Shown here in pieces: positions 22,523 through 29,503 of a stretch of DNA of 64,000 nt. The notes under the pieces were generated by a model. That model searched no databases. It was not told the DNA's origin and saw nothing but the letters and a program-made list of their open reading frames with translations. This stretch comes from Janibacter sp. Soil728 (GTDB lineage: Bacteria > Actinomycetota > Actinomycetes > Actinomycetales > Dermatophilaceae). The position numbers were made by a program, and so were the translations under genes. Location: contig NZ_LMRZ01000006.1 in assembly GCF_001428305.1 (NCBI RefSeq), positions 62,001 through 126,000 on the forward strand. Reading direction: 5' to 3'. Each line of letters starts with the position of its first letter. The first letter of the stretch is position 1.

Positions 22523-22566
22523 CCCGGCCTGCTCCGCGGGTACCGGACCAGGTGTGGCCCCAAGGA

Positions 22567-22620
22567 CGAAGCCGGCGGGCTCTCCCTTCGGACGTGTGTT
22601 GCTCTTTTGTGCCGGCTTCG
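22567..22620. terminator. Inverted repeat between convergent GNAT and PPTase genes
   Basis: CGAAGCCGGC at 22567-22576 is repeated inverted at 22611-22620 around a 34-base centre. It lies between two convergent genes and probably serves both. Confidence 0.6.
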
Positions 22621-22647
22621 CCCATGAGTCGGGCCGACACCTGACCG

Positions 22648-23193
22648 TCACCCGCTCAGGTGGTCGGCGGACTCTTCCTGCGTGTGGGTGATGACCCCGA
22701 CCTCATCTGTGTCATGGCAGGCGAGGGCGGCGAGGTAGCCGTGGAGGGGCACGGGGAGGGACTGGACCTGCAGGCCCGCCAGGTCCCTCGAGCCCGAGGC
22801 CTTGAAGGCCGCCTCTTCGCGGACCCAGCGCCCGATGTCGTCACCACGGGTGGTCGCCTCGACGTCGACGCCGACGCGGGTGGGTGAGGTCGCGACGAGG
22901 ACGAGCGGGCCGGCGTGCGCGACGGAGACGTGCAGGCTCGGGACGCGGGGGCGGCCGTGGGGGCCGCCGCACTCGTCGCAGGCGCGGTCGACGGGCACCT
23001 CTCGCGGGTCGAGACCCGTCGCGGCCGCCACGGCCACCCTCAGCAGCGCGGCCCCGACGACGAAGCGCCCCACGTCGGCCGCCGACGCGATCCCCTCCGC
23101 CCGGCGGGTCTCCACGGGGTCGAGGTGGGCGAGCAGCCGGCGGTCCATCGCGCGCAGGTCTGACCACCAGATGTCCACGACGTGGTTCGGCAT
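22648..23193 (-). CDS. 4'-phosphopantetheinyl transferase (Sfp-type)
   Basis: Transfers phosphopantetheine from CoA to a serine of a carrier protein. The 181-residue protein has the three Sfp motifs: LHVSVAHAGPLVLVA, VGVDVEATTRGDD (metal-binding Asp/Glu) and WVREEAAFKASG. In the last, the catalytic Glu and final Lys of WxxKEAxxK are kept but the first Lys is Glu. An Arg/Cys-rich segment ACDECGGPHGRP precedes them. It is divergent from the adenylation-carrier fusion gene with only 60 bases between them, so the carrier domain there is its obvious client. The iron box in that gap may control both directions. Confidence 0.88.
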   Translation of the reverse strand: MPNHVVDIWWSDLRAMDRRLLAHLDPVETRRAEGIASAADVGRFVVGAALLRVAVAAATGLDPREVPVDRACDECGGPHGRPRVPSLHVSVAHAGPLVLVATSPTRVGVDVEATTRGDDIGRWVREEAAFKASGSRDLAGLQVQSLPVPLHGYLAALACHDTDEVGVITHTQEESADHLSG

Positions 23194-23234
23194 GTGTGTC
23201 AGGCCCTTCCGCGGCTGTACTCTGACCCGCAGAC

Positions 23235-23253
23235 TAAGGATAGGCACACCAAC
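23235..23253. promoter_or_regulatory. Probable DmdR/IdeR-type iron box
   Basis: TAAGGATAGGCACACCAAC ends one base before the ATG of the adenylation-carrier fusion gene. It matches 14 of 19 positions of the Streptomyces desferrioxamine iron box TTAGGTTAGGCTCACCTAA as I remember it. Repressor bound here would block the fusion-transporter operon, and perhaps the divergent phosphopantetheinyl transferase gene, when iron is plentiful. Confidence 0.65.
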
Positions 23254-25830
23254 ATGACGCTGACGATCCCCCTCGAGGCGATGCCGACCGCAGCGCCCGA
23301 GCGCACCTCGCGGCGTGTCGGCCCCTTCCTCCACCCGGGCTCCCCCGACCCCGCCCTCGTCGAGCACGGCCGGGTCATCACCCACGACGCGTTGGCTCGT
23401 CGCGTCGCCGACCTCGCCGATCGCCTGCCCCCGGTCGCGACCGGCCGCCGCCTCGTGCACCTCCCCCTCGCCCGGGACGTCGCCGGGATCGTCGGTCACC
23501 TCGCGGTCCAGGCCGCCGGTCACGTCGCCCTGGTCACCGGACCGGGCGCCGAGTCGATCACCGAACGCTTCGCCCCCGACCTGCGCCTGACGGACGAGCA
23601 CGTCGAGACGCTGGTGGAGCACGCCGCCCACCTGCTCCACCCGGACCTGGCGCTCCTGCTGTCCACCTCCGGGAGCACCGGCAGCCCCAAGCTGGTACGG
23701 CTGTCCCACGACAACATCACCAGCAATGCCGCCGCCATCGCCGAGGCGCTCGGCCTGGGCCCGACGGACCGCGCGATCACCTCCCTTCCCCTCCACTACT
23801 GCTACGGGCTGTCGGTGCTGCACAGCACGCTCCACGTCGGAGGCAGCGTCGTCGTCACCGACCAGTCGGTGACCGACGACGCGTTCTGGCGGGAGCACGT
23901 CACGCATCAGGTCAGCGTCCTCGCGGGAGTACCGCACACCTTCGACCTCATCGAGCCGCGCCTGCGCGGCGGCCTGCCGGGGCTGCGCCTGGTCACCCAG
24001 GCAGGCGGCGCGCTCGCCCCCGACCGCATCACGCAGCTCACCGAGATCGGACGGGCCCAGGGATGGCAGCTGGGCGTCATGTACGGCCAGACCGAGGCGA
24101 CCGCGCGCATGGCCATCCACATCGGCGACGGGGTGGCGCAGGCTCCAGAGGCCGTGGGCCATGCCCTGGTCGGGTCCGCCGTGCGCGTGGACCGCGCCGG
24201 TCACGAGGACCGCGACGACGGTGCCGGTGAGCTCGTCTTCACCGGCCCGGGCGTGATGCTCGGGTACGCCGAGCACCCCGACGAGCTGGCCCTGGGCCGC
24301 ATGATCGACGAGCTGCGCACCGGCGACCTCGGGCACGTGGACGAGGACGGCCTCGTCCGCGTCGTCGGCCGCTGCGACCAGGTCGCCAAGATCCTGGGTC
24401 TGCGCATCGATCTCGGTCGGGTGAACGCGGCCCTCACCGGCGCCGGGCACCGCGCCATGGTCACGGCTGACGCGCAGCACCTCCTCGTCACCCTCGTGAC
24501 CGACCCTGCCGAAGGGAGCGCCTCTCGCCTGCTGCAGTCGGTCCGGGGCCTCGCGGCACAGGCCTCCGGCCTGCAGCCGGGGGCCGTCGTCGTCGCTCCC
24601 GTCGACGCGATCCCGTTGCTGCCCAACGGCAAGACCGACCGCATCGCCTGCCGTGAGCACGCTCTGGCCAGCATCGATCGGGAGGCCGACACCAGCGACG
24701 ACCACCTCGCCGCAACGGTCTCGATCGTCGCGAGCGCCCTCGGCCGCGACGAGGCCGACCCCGACCGGTCCTTCGCGCAGCTCGGCGGCGACTCCTACAA
24801 CCTCGTCCAGACCTCGGTGCGCCTCGAGCGGGTGCTCGGCACGCTGCCCGACGGGTGGCACCACATCCCCCTTCGTCAGCTCGCGCAGGACGCCACCCCG
24901 CCCGGCCGCCACGTTCACTGGGTGGACACCCCACTGCTCCTGCGGGCCGTCGCGGCCATCGCGATCTGCGCCAGCCACCTGGGACTCGTCGCCGCCCCCG
25001 GCGGTGCGCACACGCTGCTGGCCCTCGCCGGGTGGTCGATGAGTCGCTTCACTCTCGACACCCCCGAACCCACGCTCCGCCGACGGAGCGGGCTGCGCTC
25101 GATCGCCGCCCTGGCCATCCCCTCCATGGTCGTCGCCCTGATCGGCCTGGTCACCGCTGGCGGATACGGCTGGGAGAACGTGCTGCTCGTCAACTGGCTC
25201 ATCGGGGAGATGGAGTGGGGCGCACGCATCAACCTGTGGTTCATCGAGGCGCTGCTCGCCTGCAGCCTCGCCGTCCTCGCACTCCTGTCCGTGCCGCGTC
25301 TCGGACTGGTCCACGTGCGCCACCCGTGGGCCTGGAGCATGGCGCTGGCGGCGGCTGCGCTCGTCCCCCGCTGGATCCTCGTCCCTGACTCCACCGGCGC
25401 CACTCGTGGGCTGCCCGGGTCCGTCCTGTGGCTCTTCGCCATCGGCATGGCGCTGGGCGTGGCCCGCACCCGCAGGCAGCGCGTGGCCACCATGGCGCTC
25501 ACCGGCATCGGCATGTGGGACTTCTTCGTCGAGCCCAGCCGCGGCCTGACCGTGCTCGTCGCCATCACCGTGCTCGCCTTCGTCCCGCGGATCCCGCTGC
25601 CACGCCTCCTCGTGCTACCCCTCGGGCTGCTCGCCGCCGCCTCCCTGCACATCTACCTCGTCCAGTGGCAGGTCTTCCGGGTCGTCGACCAGCCGGTCCT
25701 CGCCCTGCTCACCTCCTTCGCCGCCGGTATCGCCGTGTGGTGGCTCTTCCAGGCGCCCACCCGAGCGCTCACCGACCGTCTCGTCCGACTCCGCCCCACC
25801 CTCCCGACCCCGACCGGAGATCCCTCATGA
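23254..25830 (+). CDS. Adenylation-carrier-Acyltransferase_3 fusion protein
   Basis: An 858-residue three-part protein. The adenylation domain (~20-475) has A3 TSGSTGSPK (138-146), A5 YGQTEA (277-282), A7 TGDLGH (356-361), A8 GRCDQVAKILGLRIDLGRV and A10 PNGKTDR with Lys460. A carrier domain follows (~480-550) with the phosphopantetheine serine at 514 in LGGDSYN. The rest (~560-850) is a ten-or-so helix membrane domain of the Acyltransferase_3 type, with the family Arg564...His575 pair (RAVAAIAICASH) and a late LHIYLVQW segment. The adenylation A4 region reads LPLHYCYGLS rather than the FDxS typical of amino-acid-activating domains, so a carboxylic acid is likelier than an amino acid. Its stop overlaps the ferric-binding-protein start (ATGA). 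No condensation or thioesterase domain is present. Product unknown. Confidence 0.88.
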   Translation: MTLTIPLEAMPTAAPERTSRRVGPFLHPGSPDPALVEHGRVITHDALARRVADLADRLPPVATGRRLVHLPLARDVAGIVGHLAVQAAGHVALVTGPGAESITERFAPDLRLTDEHVETLVEHAAHLLHPDLALLLSTSGSTGSPKLVRLSHDNITSNAAAIAEALGLGPTDRAITSLPLHYCYGLSVLHSTLHVGGSVVVTDQSVTDDAFWREHVTHQVSVLAGVPHTFDLIEPRLRGGLPGLRLVTQAGGALAPDRITQLTEIGRAQGWQLGVMYGQTEATARMAIHIGDGVAQAPEAVGHALVGSAVRVDRAGHEDRDDGAGELVFTGPGVMLGYAEHPDELALGRMIDELRTGDLGHVDEDGLVRVVGRCDQVAKILGLRIDLGRVNAALTGAGHRAMVTADAQHLLVTLVTDPAEGSASRLLQSVRGLAAQASGLQPGAVVVAPVDAIPLLPNGKTDRIACREHALASIDREADTSDDHLAATVSIVASALGRDEADPDRSFAQLGGDSYNLVQTSVRLERVLGTLPDGWHHIPLRQLAQDATPPGRHVHWVDTPLLLRAVAAIAICASHLGLVAAPGGAHTLLALAGWSMSRFTLDTPEPTLRRRSGLRSIAALAIPSMVVALIGLVTAGGYGWENVLLVNWLIGEMEWGARINLWFIEALLACSLAVLALLSVPRLGLVHVRHPWAWSMALAAAALVPRWILVPDSTGATRGLPGSVLWLFAIGMALGVARTRRQRVATMALTGIGMWDFFVEPSRGLTVLVAITVLAFVPRIPLPRLLVLPLGLLAAASLHIYLVQWQVFRVVDQPVLALLTSFAAGIAVWWLFQAPTRALTDRLVRLRPTLPTPTGDPS

Positions 25831-26846
25831 ACCGACGCACCCTCCTCACCGCGGCCCTCAGCTCCTCGGTCCTGGCACTCGCCGCCTGCGGTGGCGCCGA
25901 CGGTCCGACGACCGACCCGGATGCGCTCCAGATCTACTCCAGCCAGCACGACAGCCTCACCAAGGCGTGGGCCGAGGGCTTCACCAAGAAGACCGGGATC
26001 AAGACCCAGATCCGCCCCGGCAAGGACGCCTCGATGGGCCACCAGATCGTCCAGGAGGGCGAGAAGTCCCCGGCCGATGTCTTCCTCACGGAGAACAGCC
26101 CGGCGATGACCCTCGTCGAGGACAGCGGCCTGCTCGCACCGATCGACTCCACGACCCTCGCTCAGGTGCCCACGAACCGCCGCCCCTCCAGCGGTGACTG
26201 GACGAGCGTCGCGGCCCGATCCACCGTCCTCGTCTACAACCCGGACAAGGTCAGCGACAAGGACCTGCCCGCCTCGCTGATGGACCTGAGCAAGCCGGAG
26301 TACAAGGACCAGTGGGGTGCCGGTGCCACCGGCGCCGACTTCCAGGCCATCGTCGCCGGCATGCTGGCCGACCAGGGCGAGGCCAAGACGAAGAGCTGGC
26401 TCGAGGGCATGAAGACCAACGCCCGCATCTACGAGAACAACATCGCGACCATGAAGGCCGTCAACTCCGGCGAGGTCCCGATGGGCGTGATCTACCACTA
26501 CTACTGGTACCGCGACCAGGCCGAGACCAAGGAGGGCACGGCCAACACCAAGCTGCACTACTTCAAGCAGAAGGACCCCGGCGCCTTCGTCAGCCTCTCC
26601 GCCGCGGGTGTGCTCGCGTCCGCCAAGCACCCGGACGAGGCGCAGAAGTTCGTCGAGTACATTCTCTCTGACGAGGGGCAGAAGGTCCTCGAGACGAGTG
26701 GCTCCAAGGAGTACGCCGTGGCCAAGGGTGCGGCGTCCGACCCCGACCTCCCGACGCTCGAGTCCCTGCAGGCGCCCGCCGTCGACCCCTTCGCCCTCGA
26801 CTCAGAGAAGGTCACCCAGCTGATGACCGATGCCGGCCTCCTCTAG
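25827..26846 (+). CDS. Ferric iron ABC transporter, substrate-binding lipoprotein
   Basis: Extracytoplasmic iron-binding protein of the FbpA/FutA class, 339 residues. The lipobox is LALAAC, placing the lipidated Cys near residue 19. The mature protein has YSSQHDSLTKAWAEGFTKKTGI at the start and, near residue 220, a Tyr-rich segment (IYHYYWYRD) corresponding to the paired tyrosines that coordinate ferric ion in FbpA proteins. The ATG overlaps the stop of the adenylation-carrier fusion gene by 4 bases and its end overlaps the permease gene, so all are co-translated. It could bind free or chelated ferric iron, which is not resolved. Confidence 0.9.
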   Translation: MNRRTLLTAALSSSVLALAACGGADGPTTDPDALQIYSSQHDSLTKAWAEGFTKKTGIKTQIRPGKDASMGHQIVQEGEKSPADVFLTENSPAMTLVEDSGLLAPIDSTTLAQVPTNRRPSSGDWTSVAARSTVLVYNPDKVSDKDLPASLMDLSKPEYKDQWGAGATGADFQAIVAGMLADQGEAKTKSWLEGMKTNARIYENNIATMKAVNSGEVPMGVIYHYYWYRDQAETKEGTANTKLHYFKQKDPGAFVSLSAAGVLASAKHPDEAQKFVEYILSDEGQKVLETSGSKEYAVAKGAASDPDLPTLESLQAPAVDPFALDSEKVTQLMTDAGLL

Positions 26847-28359
26847 GCACCTCTTGATGGCCGCGGCGATCATCGTCGCGGCCATCACCGTGCTCCCGAT
26901 CGCGCTCGTCGCGGCGGACGGACTGGGGACGTCGCCGGGTGGGGCGCTGGACTACCTGCTGCGACCCCGGATCGGGGAGCTGCTGAGCAACACCCTCCTG
27001 CTCGTGGCCGTCACCGTCCCGGCGTGCATCGCCCTCGGGGTGGGCGTGGCCTGGCTCGTGGAGCGCACCGACCTCCCCTTCGCCGGGGTCTGGCGCGTCC
27101 TGCTCGGCGCACCGCTCGCCGTGCCCGCCTTCGTCGCCGCGTACGCGTGGGTGTCCGTGCGGCCGGGACTCGACGGGCTCGCCGGGGCGGCCCTCGTCAC
27201 CACCGCCGCCTACTTCCCCTTCGTCTACCTCCCGGTCGCCGCCATCCTGCGTGACCTCGACGCGGCGCCCGCCGAGGACGCCCGGGCACTCGGCCTGACC
27301 GCCTTCGCCGCCTGGCGACGCACCGTGCTGCCGCGGCTACGACCGGCGGTCAGCGGCGGCGCGCTCCTCGTCGCACTGCACCTCCTCGCGGAGTTCGGCG
27401 TGCTGGAGATGATGCGCTACCCGACCTTCACCACGGCGATCCTCGTCCAGTACCAGGTCAGCTTCAGCAGCAACCAGGGCAGCCTGCTCGCCGTCGTCCT
27501 GGTGCTGCTGTGCATCACCGTCCTGACGCTCGAGCACTTCCTGCGCGGGTCCGCGCGCACCTCCCGCGTCGGCCGCGGCGTGCACCGCGCCGCCGAGCCC
27601 GTGCCCCTCGGCCGTTGGGCACCCCTCGCGTGCGCGGCGCTGTCCGTCGTCGTGCTCGTCTCCCTCGTCGTGCCCGTCACCCTCGTCGGGCGGTGGCTCC
27701 TGGCTCACCTCGCCGACCCGACCCCCGACCCGGGGCTGCGCCCGTCACTGCTCCTGACCACCGGGAGCACCATCTCGCTCGCGCTGGCCGCCGCGGTCCT
27801 CACGACCGTCATGGCCCTCCCCGGCGCGTGGCTGCTCAGCCGACGACGCTCCGGCTGGACGCTCCTGCTCGAACGCGTCACCTACGTCGCCAGCTCCCTG
27901 CCGGGCGTCGTCATCGCGCTGGCCATGATCACGCTGACGGTCAGGTACCTGCCGTCCGTCTACCAGAGCCCCGCGCTGCTCGTCCTGGGCTACACGATCC
28001 TCTTCATCCCGCGGGCCATGGTCTCGCTGCGCTCCGGGCTGGCTGCCGCGCCACCTGAGCTGAGCGATGCCGCCCGTTCTCTGGGCAGCAGCCCGCTCAG
28101 CGCCTTCCGCCGGGTGGTGCTCCCCCTCATCCTCCCTTCGGTCCTCACCGGGGCCGCGCTCGTCGCCATCGCGGCAGCGACCGAGCTGACGGCCACCCTG
28201 CTGCTGTCACCGACCGGGACCTCCACGCTCGCGACCGCCTTCTGGGCGGCGAGCGACGAGTTCGACTACGCGGGGGCTGCTCCCTTCGCGGCGATGATGA
28301 TCTTGCTGTCAGCGCCCCTGACCGTCCTGATGCTGCGACAGAGTGGGATCGAAGAATGA
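26830..28359 (+). CDS. Ferric iron ABC transporter, double-length permease
   Basis: Integral membrane protein of 509 residues with about twelve helices and two binding-protein-dependent transport domains fused in tandem, as in FbpB/SfuB. Two EAA loops that contact the ATPase are visible: EDARALGLTAFAAWRRTVLPRLRP in the first half and LSDAARSLGSSPLSAFRRVVLPLILP in the second. The ATG at 26830 overlaps the binding-protein gene by 17 bases. A later ATG at 26857 is possible. The stop overlaps the ATPase gene start (ATGA). Confidence 0.9.
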   Translation: MPASSRHLLMAAAIIVAAITVLPIALVAADGLGTSPGGALDYLLRPRIGELLSNTLLLVAVTVPACIALGVGVAWLVERTDLPFAGVWRVLLGAPLAVPAFVAAYAWVSVRPGLDGLAGAALVTTAAYFPFVYLPVAAILRDLDAAPAEDARALGLTAFAAWRRTVLPRLRPAVSGGALLVALHLLAEFGVLEMMRYPTFTTAILVQYQVSFSSNQGSLLAVVLVLLCITVLTLEHFLRGSARTSRVGRGVHRAAEPVPLGRWAPLACAALSVVVLVSLVVPVTLVGRWLLAHLADPTPDPGLRPSLLLTTGSTISLALAAAVLTTVMALPGAWLLSRRRSGWTLLLERVTYVASSLPGVVIALAMITLTVRYLPSVYQSPALLVLGYTILFIPRAMVSLRSGLAAAPPELSDAARSLGSSPLSAFRRVVLPLILPSVLTGAALVAIAAATELTATLLLSPTGTSTLATAFWAASDEFDYAGAAPFAAMMILLSAPLTVLMLRQSGIEE

Positions 28360-29396
28360 GCACTGTTGACGTCCGAGGGATCACCGTCGGGTACGGCGGC
28401 GATCCGGTCCTGCGCGAGATCGACCTCGTCGTCCCGACCGGCACGACGACGGCCGTGCTCGGCGCCTCCGGGGGCGGCAAGACCACGCTGCTGCGGGTCA
28501 TCGCCGGCTTCCTGGCCCCCGACGCCGGCACGGTCCGTCTCGACGAGCGCATCGTGTGCAGCGACGGACGAGCCGTGCCGCCCGAGCGTCGCGGCATCGG
28601 CTACGTGCGTCAGGACGGCGGTCTCTTCCCCCACCTGGACGTCGGCGGGAACATCGCCTTCGGGCTGCCCCGCGCAGCCCGGCGTCGGCGCGACCGCGTC
28701 GCCGAGCTGCTCGAGCTCGTCGGCCTACCCGCGCAGACCGCGACCCGGCGACCGGCCCAGCTCTCCGGCGGTCAGCAGCAGCGTGTGGCCCTGGCGCGCG
28801 CGCTGGCCCTCTCCCCGGGCGTCGTGCTGCTCGACGAACCCTTCTCCTCGCTCGACACGGCCCTGCGAGCCAGCACCCGCGACGCCGTCGCAGCTGCCCT
28901 CGCCGAGACCGCGGCCACGACGATCCTCGTGACGCACGACCAGCAGGAGGCGCTGTCCTTCGCCGACCAGGTCGCGATCATGCGCGACGGCCGGTTCAGC
29001 CAGGTCGGCACCCCTCGCGAGATCTACGAGGCGCCCATCGACATGCGCGAAGCCTCCTTCCTCGGCGACGTCGTGCACCTCGCCGGCCACTGCACCGACG
29101 ACGGCATCGCCAGCCCGCTGGGCCTGGTCACGGCCCGCGGAGACTCGCCAGCGGCCGTCTCTGGTGACGTCGACGTCGTCGTCCGCCCGGAGGACCTGAC
29201 CCTGACCGACTCCCCCGGTTGTCCCCACGGCACGGTCCAGGACATCAGCTACCACGGCGCCCACGCGCTCGTCCGGGTCGCCCTGGACGACGGGACCACC
29301 GTCAGCGTGCGGGTCGTCGGCCGCTGGACTCCCGAGCCCGGCGAGCAGGTGCCCGTCAGCGTCATCGGCCCCGTCCTGGCCTACCCGCGCCCCTGA
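28356..29396 (+). CDS. Ferric iron ABC transporter, ATP-binding protein
   Basis: A 346-residue ATPase energising the permease. Walker A GASGGGKTT (~36-44), signature LSGGQQQRVALARAL, Walker B VVLLDEPFSSLD and switch THDQQEA are all intact. The C-terminal ~90 residues form a TOBE-like domain (VVRPEDLTLTDSPGC onward), as in FbpC. It ends the four-gene operon and is followed by an inverted repeat. Confidence 0.92.
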   Translation: MSTVDVRGITVGYGGDPVLREIDLVVPTGTTTAVLGASGGGKTTLLRVIAGFLAPDAGTVRLDERIVCSDGRAVPPERRGIGYVRQDGGLFPHLDVGGNIAFGLPRAARRRRDRVAELLELVGLPAQTATRRPAQLSGGQQQRVALARALALSPGVVLLDEPFSSLDTALRASTRDAVAAALAETAATTILVTHDQQEALSFADQVAIMRDGRFSQVGTPREIYEAPIDMREASFLGDVVHLAGHCTDDGIASPLGLVTARGDSPAAVSGDVDVVVRPEDLTLTDSPGCPHGTVQDISYHGAHALVRVALDDGTTVSVRVVGRWTPEPGEQVPVSVIGPVLAYPRP

Positions 29397-29421: not shown

Positions 29422-29503
29422 GCGGGCGAAGGGAGGGGTCGGCCCGACTCATGGCGAAGGCCGCCAGGCCTGAGCCTTGGGGCCACCCCTCCCCTTTGCC
29501 CGC
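29422..29503. terminator. Convergent terminator after the iron operon
   Basis: An imperfect inverted repeat, left arm 29422-29439 and right arm 29485-29503, between the rightward iron operon and the leftward VanW gene. The centre holds further GC-rich self-complementary sequence. Confidence 0.6.

Follow-up and report, generated by a model that had tools for sequence, protein, structure and literature searches.

An A-PCP-AT3 fusion protein family as a probable partner of the ferric importer FbpABC in the iron regulon of Actinomycetota

A protein family that joins an adenylation domain, a carrier (PCP) domain and an AT3-type membrane acyltransferase domain in one chain (A-PCP-AT3) is scattered widely in Actinomycetota. 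Comparison across genomes points most plausibly to a partner of the ferric importer FbpABC within the iron regulon, and, judged from sequence, it is very probable that the fusion is functionally coupled to ferric uptake. This reading draws on what comparison established: the domain make-up, the intact catalytic residues, the iron box, the linkage and the genome co-occurrence. What the enzyme makes is a more tentative matter; we put at somewhat less than even the chance that one iron-repressed protein replaces a siderophore pathway plus exporter, building from a carboxylate-bearing acid a surface or minimal released Fe(III) ligand for FbpA.

The locus and its importer genes

The locus lies within the 64-kb stretch of DNA analysed here (the window), which comes from a Janibacter-like genome. 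Gene coordinates and overlaps re-derived from the sequence bear out the layout proposed in a first-pass annotation, namely, a PPTase gene diverging from the fusion gene, which is followed by a chain of overlapping importer genes (Table 1). The spacer between the divergent genes (23194-23253) is 60 nt long, and the fusion/SBP, SBP/permease and permease/ATPase overlaps are 4, 17 and 4 nt, respectively. A promoter scan returned no sigma-70 consensus site, which counts against TACTCT as a -10 hexamer.

Table 1. Features of the fusion-importer locus, in window coordinates
Feature	Position	Strand	Remarks
PPTase gene	22648-23193	-	181 aa, predicted Sfp-like, divergent from fusion gene
Possible -10 hexamer TACTCT	23218..23223	+	TANNNT in 7/7 non-redundant genus spacers, by eye
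Putative IdeR/DmdR-like iron box TAAGGATAGGCACACCAAC	23235..23253	+	13/19, abuts start codon
A-PCP-AT3 fusion gene	23254-25830	+	858 aa
Adenylation domain	23335..24648	+	~residues 28-465; C183, R285, K460
Carrier (PCP) domain	24709..24858	+	~residues 486-535; Ser514 = codon 24793-24795
Putative AT3-type membrane acyltransferase domain	24916..25758	+	~residues 555-835; R564, H575
FbpA/SfuA-type ferric-binding protein (SBP)	25827-26846	+	H41, E89, Y225, Y226; lipobox by eye
FbpB/SfuB-type two-domain permease	26830-28359	+	two BPD_transp_1 stretches
FbpC/SfuC-type ATPase	28356-29396	+	ABC_tran + TOBE_2

The importer had been assigned to the FbpABC ferric type, and structure matches, ligands and Pfam domains, all at the level of sequence, support this well. 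The SBP is of the SfuA/YfuA type (PDB 1xvx and 1xvy; E ~1e-112 to 1e-114) and keeps all four Fe ligands, and it shares one operon with a two-domain permease and a TOBE-bearing ATPase. Among the 57 SBPs linked to a fusion gene, that of the window included, both tyrosines were present in all 57, the histidine in 47 and the glutamate in 45, the latter two being replaced in 10 and 12, respectively. In these three components, the importer resembles the siderophore-independent SfuABC/FbpABC systems (Serratia SfuABC, Yersinia YfuA), whereas the iron-boxed A-PCP-AT3 enzyme is an addition of the window operon. SfuABC has also been reported in Arthrobacter, and the iron section of that paper mentions no such enzyme gene (PMC3534580).

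The window PPTase matched AASDHPPT_N at 18.9 bits (E 0.0019), below the Pfam cut-off of 27, and the homologue beside the fusion gene of locus L047 scored 28.6 bits, above it. The pairing of PPTase and fusion genes noted earlier stands in the window but is not a constant part of the system, a homologue lying no more than 6 kb from the fusion gene at only 15/75 loci.

Linkage, co-occurrence and iron boxes among relatives

A gene-neighbourhood check of the kind suggested in the first-pass annotation found the linkage conserved far beyond the genus: at 57 of 75 loci, and at 47 of the 65 outside the genus, all of FbpABC is encoded no more than 6.5 kb from the fusion gene. These counts were made with tblastn, since simple ORF calling had produced some ORFs on the antisense strand. 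The other 18 fusion genes, without an adjoining FbpABC, include those of L047 and L158, where on one side the sequence runs out 1.9 kb and 0.4 kb, respectively, beyond the fusion gene. When neighbouring ORFs up to 6 kb away were grouped by similarity, the clusters of FbpA, FbpB and FbpC alone recurred in at least 20 loci outside the genus, which speaks against further widely conserved biosynthetic neighbours. The rarer neighbour clusters were mostly without profile identity.

Fusion and importer genes occur in four arrangements. Placed with a "none" label on a quick tree of 74 rows, in which 14 of 71 inner branches were weak, these required 21 changes, against a least possible 4 and a shuffled mean of 44; L081, cut by a contig edge, was left out of the tree and kept in the locus counts.

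Across the class, the fusion was present in 46 of the 296 genomes sampled. FbpA (E<=1e-40) was found in 45/46 fusion-bearing genomes versus 33/250 others, and an SfuA-like FbpA (E<=1e-80) was accompanied by the fusion in 30 of 34 genomes. The order sample, which partly overlaps that of the class, gave 18/22 fusion-bearing genomes versus 18/176 others; the Fisher p values for these comparisons ignore relatedness. Loci were examined from 45 of the 46 fusion-bearing class genomes; in the one left out (G361), the fusion and FbpA matches lie ~2 kb apart on one strand. Of the 16 genus genomes, 6 yielded no full-length fusion. The signal weakens beyond the class: among five genomes, two had an adjoining FbpABC, two had a box scoring at least 13 and two had neither, one of the five loci (L161) ending 1.8 kb from the fusion gene.

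The box ahead of the fusion gene had been scored as 14/19, which a recount corrected to 13/19 against TTAGGTTAGGCTAACCTAA, which we take to be the IdeR/DmdR 19-position box consensus. Because the window holds two further 13/19 sites and a strict box pattern matched the source genome twice, as did its backwards control, the window box alone is unremarkable, and significance from the window alone was rejected. The sole other strict site in that genome lies 47 nt ahead of a FecB-like SBP gene.

By comparison across relatives, the putative iron box is significant. In the genus footprint, 14/15 box-core columns were invariant versus 0/55 flanking columns. A box of at least 13/19, a threshold chosen after the window's box had been seen, stood at the fusion gene or its FbpA-first operon at 67 of the 75 loci (56 fusion genes boxed directly and 11 in a boxed FbpA-first operon), with none by this rule at the other 8; the same score occurred in 49/2250 random windows, which may themselves overlap boxed promoters, and in 10/1460 first-order Markov shuffles. 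Scores of at least 15 were reached by 25/73 fusion genes versus 35/930 other ORFs of the same loci, 65/930 of which scored at least 13 (L125 and L153, missed by the ORF caller, were left out of this comparison but included in the counts of linkage, residues and boxes at the 13/19 threshold, and control ORFs with <250 nt of flank were skipped). Both units were boxed at 11/11 convergent loci, and the box was kept at 15 of the 18 fusion genes unlinked to FbpABC. A 19-bp box of the IdeR/DmdR regulon kind is thus conserved in relatives, even though the window's own 13/19 is not exceptional. The earlier proposal of iron control is in this way well supported by sequence comparison, and so is the proposed role of the fusion protein in iron capture, by the linkage together with the boxes on unlinked copies.

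Genus-level synteny alone would look much like the window's gene order, and the operon could then be shared without functional coupling. The repeated changes among four arrangements on the tree, the co-occurrence of fusion and FbpA across genomes and the boxes on unlinked copies leave such chance neighbourhood already strongly disfavoured, with a probability close to nil.

Domains of the fusion protein and its possible products

The fusion protein matched the Pfam families AMP-binding (E 3e-37) and PP-binding (E 2e-6). The phosphopantetheine Ser514 was conserved in 75/75 members, and the A10 lysine K460 was present in all 74 with a letter at that position. The "235" position, C183 in the window, held no Asp (C in 62, V in 9 and S in 3 of 74) and falls in the alignment where a solved DltA has its Asp; because Asp235 is absent, an alpha-amino-acid substrate is disfavoured. 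R285, at the "331" position, was invariant (74/74). Its counterpart in VinN, Arg331, is proposed to bind the substrate carboxylate (PMC7756342, PMC12186527), and the VinN loop has been described (PMC11253843). The fusion shares with VinN a YGQTE motif, the Arg at 331 and a bulky residue at 236, but is without Asp230, Ser299 (A250 in the fusion, not conserved) and the shortened loop, which in VinN is one residue shorter than in the fusion. VinN (3wvn) was the best solved match for single-sequence structure queries, whereas the family-profile query placed LgrA chains first and VinN eighth. Because of the unconserved Ser299, the differing loop length and the dependence of VinN's rank on single-sequence queries, a dicarboxylate donor is a weak guess.

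The C-terminal part of the window fusion matched Acyl_transf_3 at 26.4 bits (22.5 bits for the whole protein, E 7e-5; Pfam cut-off 31), and 16/16 family members scanned matched at E<=0.01, the best at 6.8e-10. R564 and H575, the Arg/His pair typical of AT3, were conserved in 75/75. In its likeness to the AT3 proteins OafB, OatA and VanT, the fusion has its Arg and His 11 residues apart, as are R14 and H25 of OafB, which have been called essential (PMC9833829). A hydropathy scan gave peaks merging to ~8 helices versus ten for AT3. The sections of an AT3 review on which we drew name fusions to SGNH, racemase and NRF domains and do not mention an N-terminal A-PCP donor module such as that of the fusion; the AT3 proteins covered there modify cell surfaces, with surface sugars as targets. 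Pls and PosA (epsilon-poly-lysine and delta-poly-ornithine) likewise carry a membrane-bound C-terminal part behind their A-PCP, described as ~730 residues with three helix pairs and modelled beta-helices (PMC10522769). The C-terminal part of the fusion differs in having ~300 residues and an AT3 match, and there is no Asp at 235.

The order of domains also recalls a well-known envelope pathway. In the Dlt system, DltA, DltC and DltB carry out the adenylation, carrier and membrane acyltransferase steps of teichoic acid D-alanylation, which tunes wall charge. The fusion would cover the same three steps, and a DltA is among its nearest solved A domains; it differs in being one chain that is iron boxed and tied to FbpABC, in having Cys183 in place of DltA's amine Asp and in a membrane domain that matches AT3, with no MBOAT match in Pfam. 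By a Dlt-like logic, then, the fusion could acylate the envelope with a group that does not itself bind iron and so ease the access of iron to FbpA through charge, porosity or lipid. The surface modification by AT3 proteins in that review fits such a role, which would nevertheless leave FbpABC unexplained as the specific partner at 57/75 loci, and we consider it rather unlikely. An importer lipoprotein, FbpA above all, might instead be the acceptor, given that FbpA looks like a lipoprotein (Table 1) and is encoded in the same operon. The review's AT3 targets are sugars, however, and the 18 fusion genes without adjoining FbpABC argue in the same direction, making this reading quite improbable.

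Pfam profiles detected no condensation domain in the fusion or in any of its four companion genes, and to that extent the locus is, as first annotated, not a standard siderophore cluster; the genome, however, encodes one IucA_IucC-type synthetase protein away from the locus and has two PF00668 matches on another contig, C1 (57.6 and 30.8 bits; cut-off 30.6). Both the IucA_IucC family and the condensation domain were absent from 9 of the 23 fusion-bearing genomes tested, in which the fusion route may stand alone. The resident IucA_IucC protein would suit a fusion that modifies the product of a separate siderophore pathway, such as one for a desferrioxamine-type compound, as would a Peripla_BP_2 SBP gene near the L047 fusion (a family searched at L047 alone). 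Those nine genomes disfavour the modification of a resident siderophore as a general role, and the usual neighbour is FbpABC, so that we hold it very improbable.

The same nine genomes count in favour of a minimal diffusible metallophore, for which the protein would couple an acid with some small acceptor molecule and release the product outside, where FbpA would take the chelate's iron. Linkage, co-occurrence and regulation fit this equally, as does the lack of any widely recurring neighbour cluster beyond FbpA/B/C; no exporter would be needed if the enzyme, sitting in the membrane, transferred its product vectorially. FecB-class SBPs, unlike FbpA-type SBPs, serve siderophores, and it counts against a released chelate that the ligand of the FbpA type is Fe(III) itself, bound by the tandem Tyr kept in 57/57 linked SBPs. 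The AT3 proteins of the review, moreover, act on surface sugars. We regard release of a metallophore as possible but doubtful.

A proposed route for ferric iron

We favour a surface-held ligand and, with all steps taken jointly, give this mechanism a probability of roughly 0.42 from the sequence comparisons. Here we infer the identity of the repressor, the donor, acceptor and product, the direction of transfer and the role as an iron ligand. The operon would be an iron-starvation uptake system. With ample iron, an IdeR/DmdR-type repressor, to judge from the site, would sit on the box by the start codon; iron shortage would lead to joint production of the fusion protein and FbpABC. A PPTase, either the divergent one or a different one of the same cell, would arm Ser514. 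The adenylation domain would activate a carboxylic acid without an alpha-amine, for which a di- or hydroxy-acid is possible, and charge the fused carrier with it. From there, the AT3 domain would move the acyl group across the membrane and attach it to an acceptor outside the cytoplasm, the probable candidates being an envelope glycan, lipid or polyol. The ligand thus held at the surface would gather Fe(III) and pass it on to FbpA, and FbpBC would import it.

Among the matches listed in the open-licence PMC literature, we found no description of an A-PCP-AT3 fusion or of its tie to FbpABC, in keeping with the earlier remark that no system of this make-up had been described. Such fusion genes may be overlooked in natural-product mining as incomplete NRPS genes. 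For enzymology, the fusion suggests a single-protein route from an activated acid to an extracytoplasmic product, with a carrier-bound donor for AT3. The wider question is how soluble Fe(III) is supplied to FbpABC in Gram-positive bacteria, which have neither transferrin receptors nor an outer membrane, and an iron-controlled partner enzyme conserved in many Actinomycetes offers a concrete answer that can be knocked out. If the iron-ligand reading is true, it would represent a previously undescribed way of acquiring iron.

The five-gene unit and its importer

The unit comprises a phosphopantetheinyl transferase (PPTase) gene, the fusion gene and then the SBP, permease and ATPase genes, and the coordinates bear out the description in the first-pass annotation of a divergent PPTase gene and a fusion gene overlapping an SBP-permease-ATPase chain (successive overlaps of 4, 17 and 4 nt). 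It lies on contig C6 of the 3.6-Mb genome, flanked by dapC-type, GNAT and vanW-type genes, none of which is a known iron gene. Among the loci that a scan gave at 70-89% identity to the window's fusion protein, those with names are Janibacter (L031-L034), and the genus is treated as such. Two pairs of inverted repeats surround the whole unit. Their core, TCGGCCCGACTCATG, has four exact copies and four with one mismatch in the genome (none for the backwards control) and thus resembles an intergenic element dispersed through the genome.

Coordinates of the fusion unit and its surrounding repeats in the window
Feature	Position	Remark
PPTase gene	22648-23193	divergent from fusion gene
Iron box	23235-23253	abuts fusion start codon
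Fusion gene	23254-25830	+ strand
Inverted repeats, first pair	22610-22642 with 29434-29466	82% complementary
Inverted repeats, second pair	22550-22580 with 29460-29490	74% complementary

In a search of solved structures, the window SBP was close to YfuA and SfuA (E about 1e-112 to 1e-114), which we take to be the Yersinia and Serratia proteins, respectively, with other FbpA-type ferric-binding proteins as more distant relatives. The four Fe(III) ligands of Haemophilus FbpA, named in PMC3534580 as H9, E57, Y195 and Y196, are kept in the window SBP as H41, E89, Y225 and Y226. Against the NCBIfam models of 2-aminoethylphosphonate SBPs and of thiamine SBPs, its scores fell short of the cut-offs. 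Taken together, the likeness to SfuA and YfuA, the kept ligands and the subthreshold alternatives make the proposed assignment to an FbpABC/SfuABC-type ferric importer sound at the sequence level.

Linkage of the fusion gene to FbpABC and to an iron box

Genome searches queried with the C-terminal part of the fusion found it in 22 of 198 genomes of the host's order (E≤1e-10) and 46 of 296 genomes of its class (E≤1e-15). The 75 loci studied comprise the window, 18 from the search including genus genomes, 15 more from the order, 40 more from the class, and L035, whose contig bears the label of an Acidobacteria MAG. A complete FbpABC lay within 6.5 kb of the fusion gene at 57 of the 75 and at 47 of the 65 outside the genus, so that the linkage for which a neighbourhood search had been suggested is conserved in other actinobacteria. 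The arrangement was a fusion-first operon at 20 loci, a fusion-last operon at 17 (with the ATPase gene on the opposite side of the fusion gene in 3), convergent at 11, divergent at 9 and none at 18. These five labels required 21 changes on a quick 74-row tree (minimum, 4; shuffled mean, 44), so the partnership seems to have persisted through repeated rearrangement of the surrounding genes. At L165, L121, L123 and L141, the importer genes are split, the fusion gene lying between the permease and ATPase genes. The L035 contig matches the window in gene order and has a 15/19 box; since its fusion falls within the actinobacterial tree, the contig is probably mis-binned.

In the class sample, FbpA (E≤1e-40) was present in 45 of 46 fusion-bearing genomes versus 33 of 250 others (Fisher 1e-30, with relatedness ignored); of the 34 genomes whose FbpA was SfuA-like (E≤1e-80), 30 had the fusion. 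The corresponding FbpA counts in the order sample were 18 of 22 versus 18 of 176, and in two of the four exceptions (G032 and G146) the fusion gene adjoins a gene for a diverged SBP. Full-length fusion was not found in 6 of the 16 genus genomes searched (G001-G005 and G010). G003, the only one of the six that the order sample includes, had no FbpA at E≤1e-40 either.

We scored boxes against a 19-position consensus that we take to represent IdeR/DmdR sites. The window box matched at 13 positions, not the 14 counted in the first-pass annotation, and two further 13/19 sites occur elsewhere in the window. A stricter pattern gave 2 sites in the genome versus 2 for its backwards control, namely, the window box and L159 (C4:556898). 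The gene that begins 47 nt after the latter reads by eye as a FecB-like lipoprotein gene, and the 3-kb locus also has an ORF that reads by eye as FecCD-like.

Comparison between relatives is what decisively gives the window box weight. When seven non-redundant spacers from the genus were compared, the box core was invariant at 14 of its 15 columns and the flanks at 0 of 55; the flanks were aligned without gaps, which lowers their conservation score. Many distant homologues have better boxes than the window, up to 18/19. At a threshold of 13/19, fixed after the window's own box had been seen, 56 of 75 fusion genes were boxed, 11 more lay in an operon headed by a boxed fbpA, and 8 had neither. 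That threshold was reached in 49 of 2250 random 330-nt windows from the same loci, 10 of 1460 Markov-randomised upstream regions and 65 of 930 other ORFs of these loci, which include divergent or neighbouring fbpA-type genes; at 15 or more, the counts were 25 of 73 fusion genes versus 35 of the 930 ORFs. Fusion genes without adjacent FbpABC were boxed at 15 of 18 loci, and the fusion and importer units were both boxed at all 11 convergent loci.

Elsewhere in the phylum, five genomes outside the class carry the fusion, two with adjacent FbpABC and two with a box of at least 13 (both features in one, one feature in two, neither in two). On these comparisons, the association of fusion, FbpABC and box is established for the class and holds only partly outside it.

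Other metal-related genes also lie near fusion genes. Peripla_BP_2 is a family of iron-siderophore SBPs, and one such gene, together with a PPTase gene, lies close to the unlinked fusion gene on the short contig L047. At several loci of the L130-L140 region (family f38), the 6 kb around the boxed fusion gene include ORFs from two clusters, one of ZnuA-type zinc SBPs (7 loci; the L135 member has a Pfam ZnuA match) and one that is Fur-like (9 loci; named by eye), and zinc control may also play a part. Possible further links are a weak ZIP-like gene (L048, 7468-8217; 23.5 bits versus a cut-off of 35.1) and a Cation_efflux gene (L091, 10188-11009), each adjoining an unlinked fusion gene.

The fusion protein and its possible product

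According to profile matches, an adenylation domain is followed by a carrier and then by a C-terminal AT3-type membrane domain. The carrier Ser and the AT3 Arg/His pair were invariant in the alignment of 75 family members (75/75), as was the A10 lysine in all 74 members with a letter at that column. The Arg-His distance of 11 equals that of OafB R14/H25, residues termed essential in a passage of PMC9833829. The window's AT3 score is under the Pfam cut-off, and all 16 members scanned matched Acyl_transf_3 at E≤0.01. With catalytic residues invariant and this match in every member scanned, the fusion looks like a complete, conserved enzyme rather than a relic.

Asp235 (GrsA numbering), which binds the amine in α-amino-acid adenylation domains, corresponds to Cys183 of the window fusion (Cys in 62, Val in 9 and Ser in 3 of 74 members), a residue that also aligns with the corresponding Asp of a solved DltA. 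Part of a review gives Ala, Gly, Val or Ile as its replacements in hydroxy- and keto-acid domains (PMC11253843). Arg285, present in 74/74 members, aligned (counted by hand) with VinN Arg331, for which passages of two papers propose a role in holding the substrate carboxylate (PMC7756342, PMC12186527). A carboxylate-bearing acid as the substrate is nevertheless a lead, not a result, because the nearest solved core domains in single-sequence queries included DltA and NRPS chains alongside VinN, oxalate-CoA ligases and a malonyl-CoA synthetase, a family-profile query of solved adenylation domains put LgrA first and VinN eighth, and VinN's Ser299 and shortened loop are missing from the fusion.

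SfuABC was noted in an Arthrobacter in 2012, the iron section of that paper mentioning no partner enzyme (PMC3534580). By term count, AMP-binding, adenylation, phosphopantetheine, acyl carrier and iron are all absent from an AT3 review. Pls/PosA synthetases, as partly described, share the A-PCP and membrane parts, but their membrane part differs in size. We found no description of a fusion-FbpABC system in the open-licence PMC literature, which agrees with the earlier statement that none of this make-up was known; the component families are known, and their combination, iron control and spread seem undescribed.

AT3 domains are described, in passages of two papers, as transferring acyl groups across the membrane onto external acceptors, mostly carbohydrates (PMC9558356, PMC12423673). 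The simplest reading is Dlt-like surface acylation, in which the fusion would be a self-contained machine decorating the outer face of the membrane or wall with an iron-binding acyl group; the main rival is that it makes a minimal metallophore, released from the cell. The fusion product would deliver Fe(III) to FbpA and would not itself need import, because FbpA-type proteins bind Fe(III) itself. Both IucA_IucC proteins and condensation domains were missing from 9 of the 23 fusion-bearing genomes tested, so the fusion system may in some genomes act without a siderophore of either known kind.
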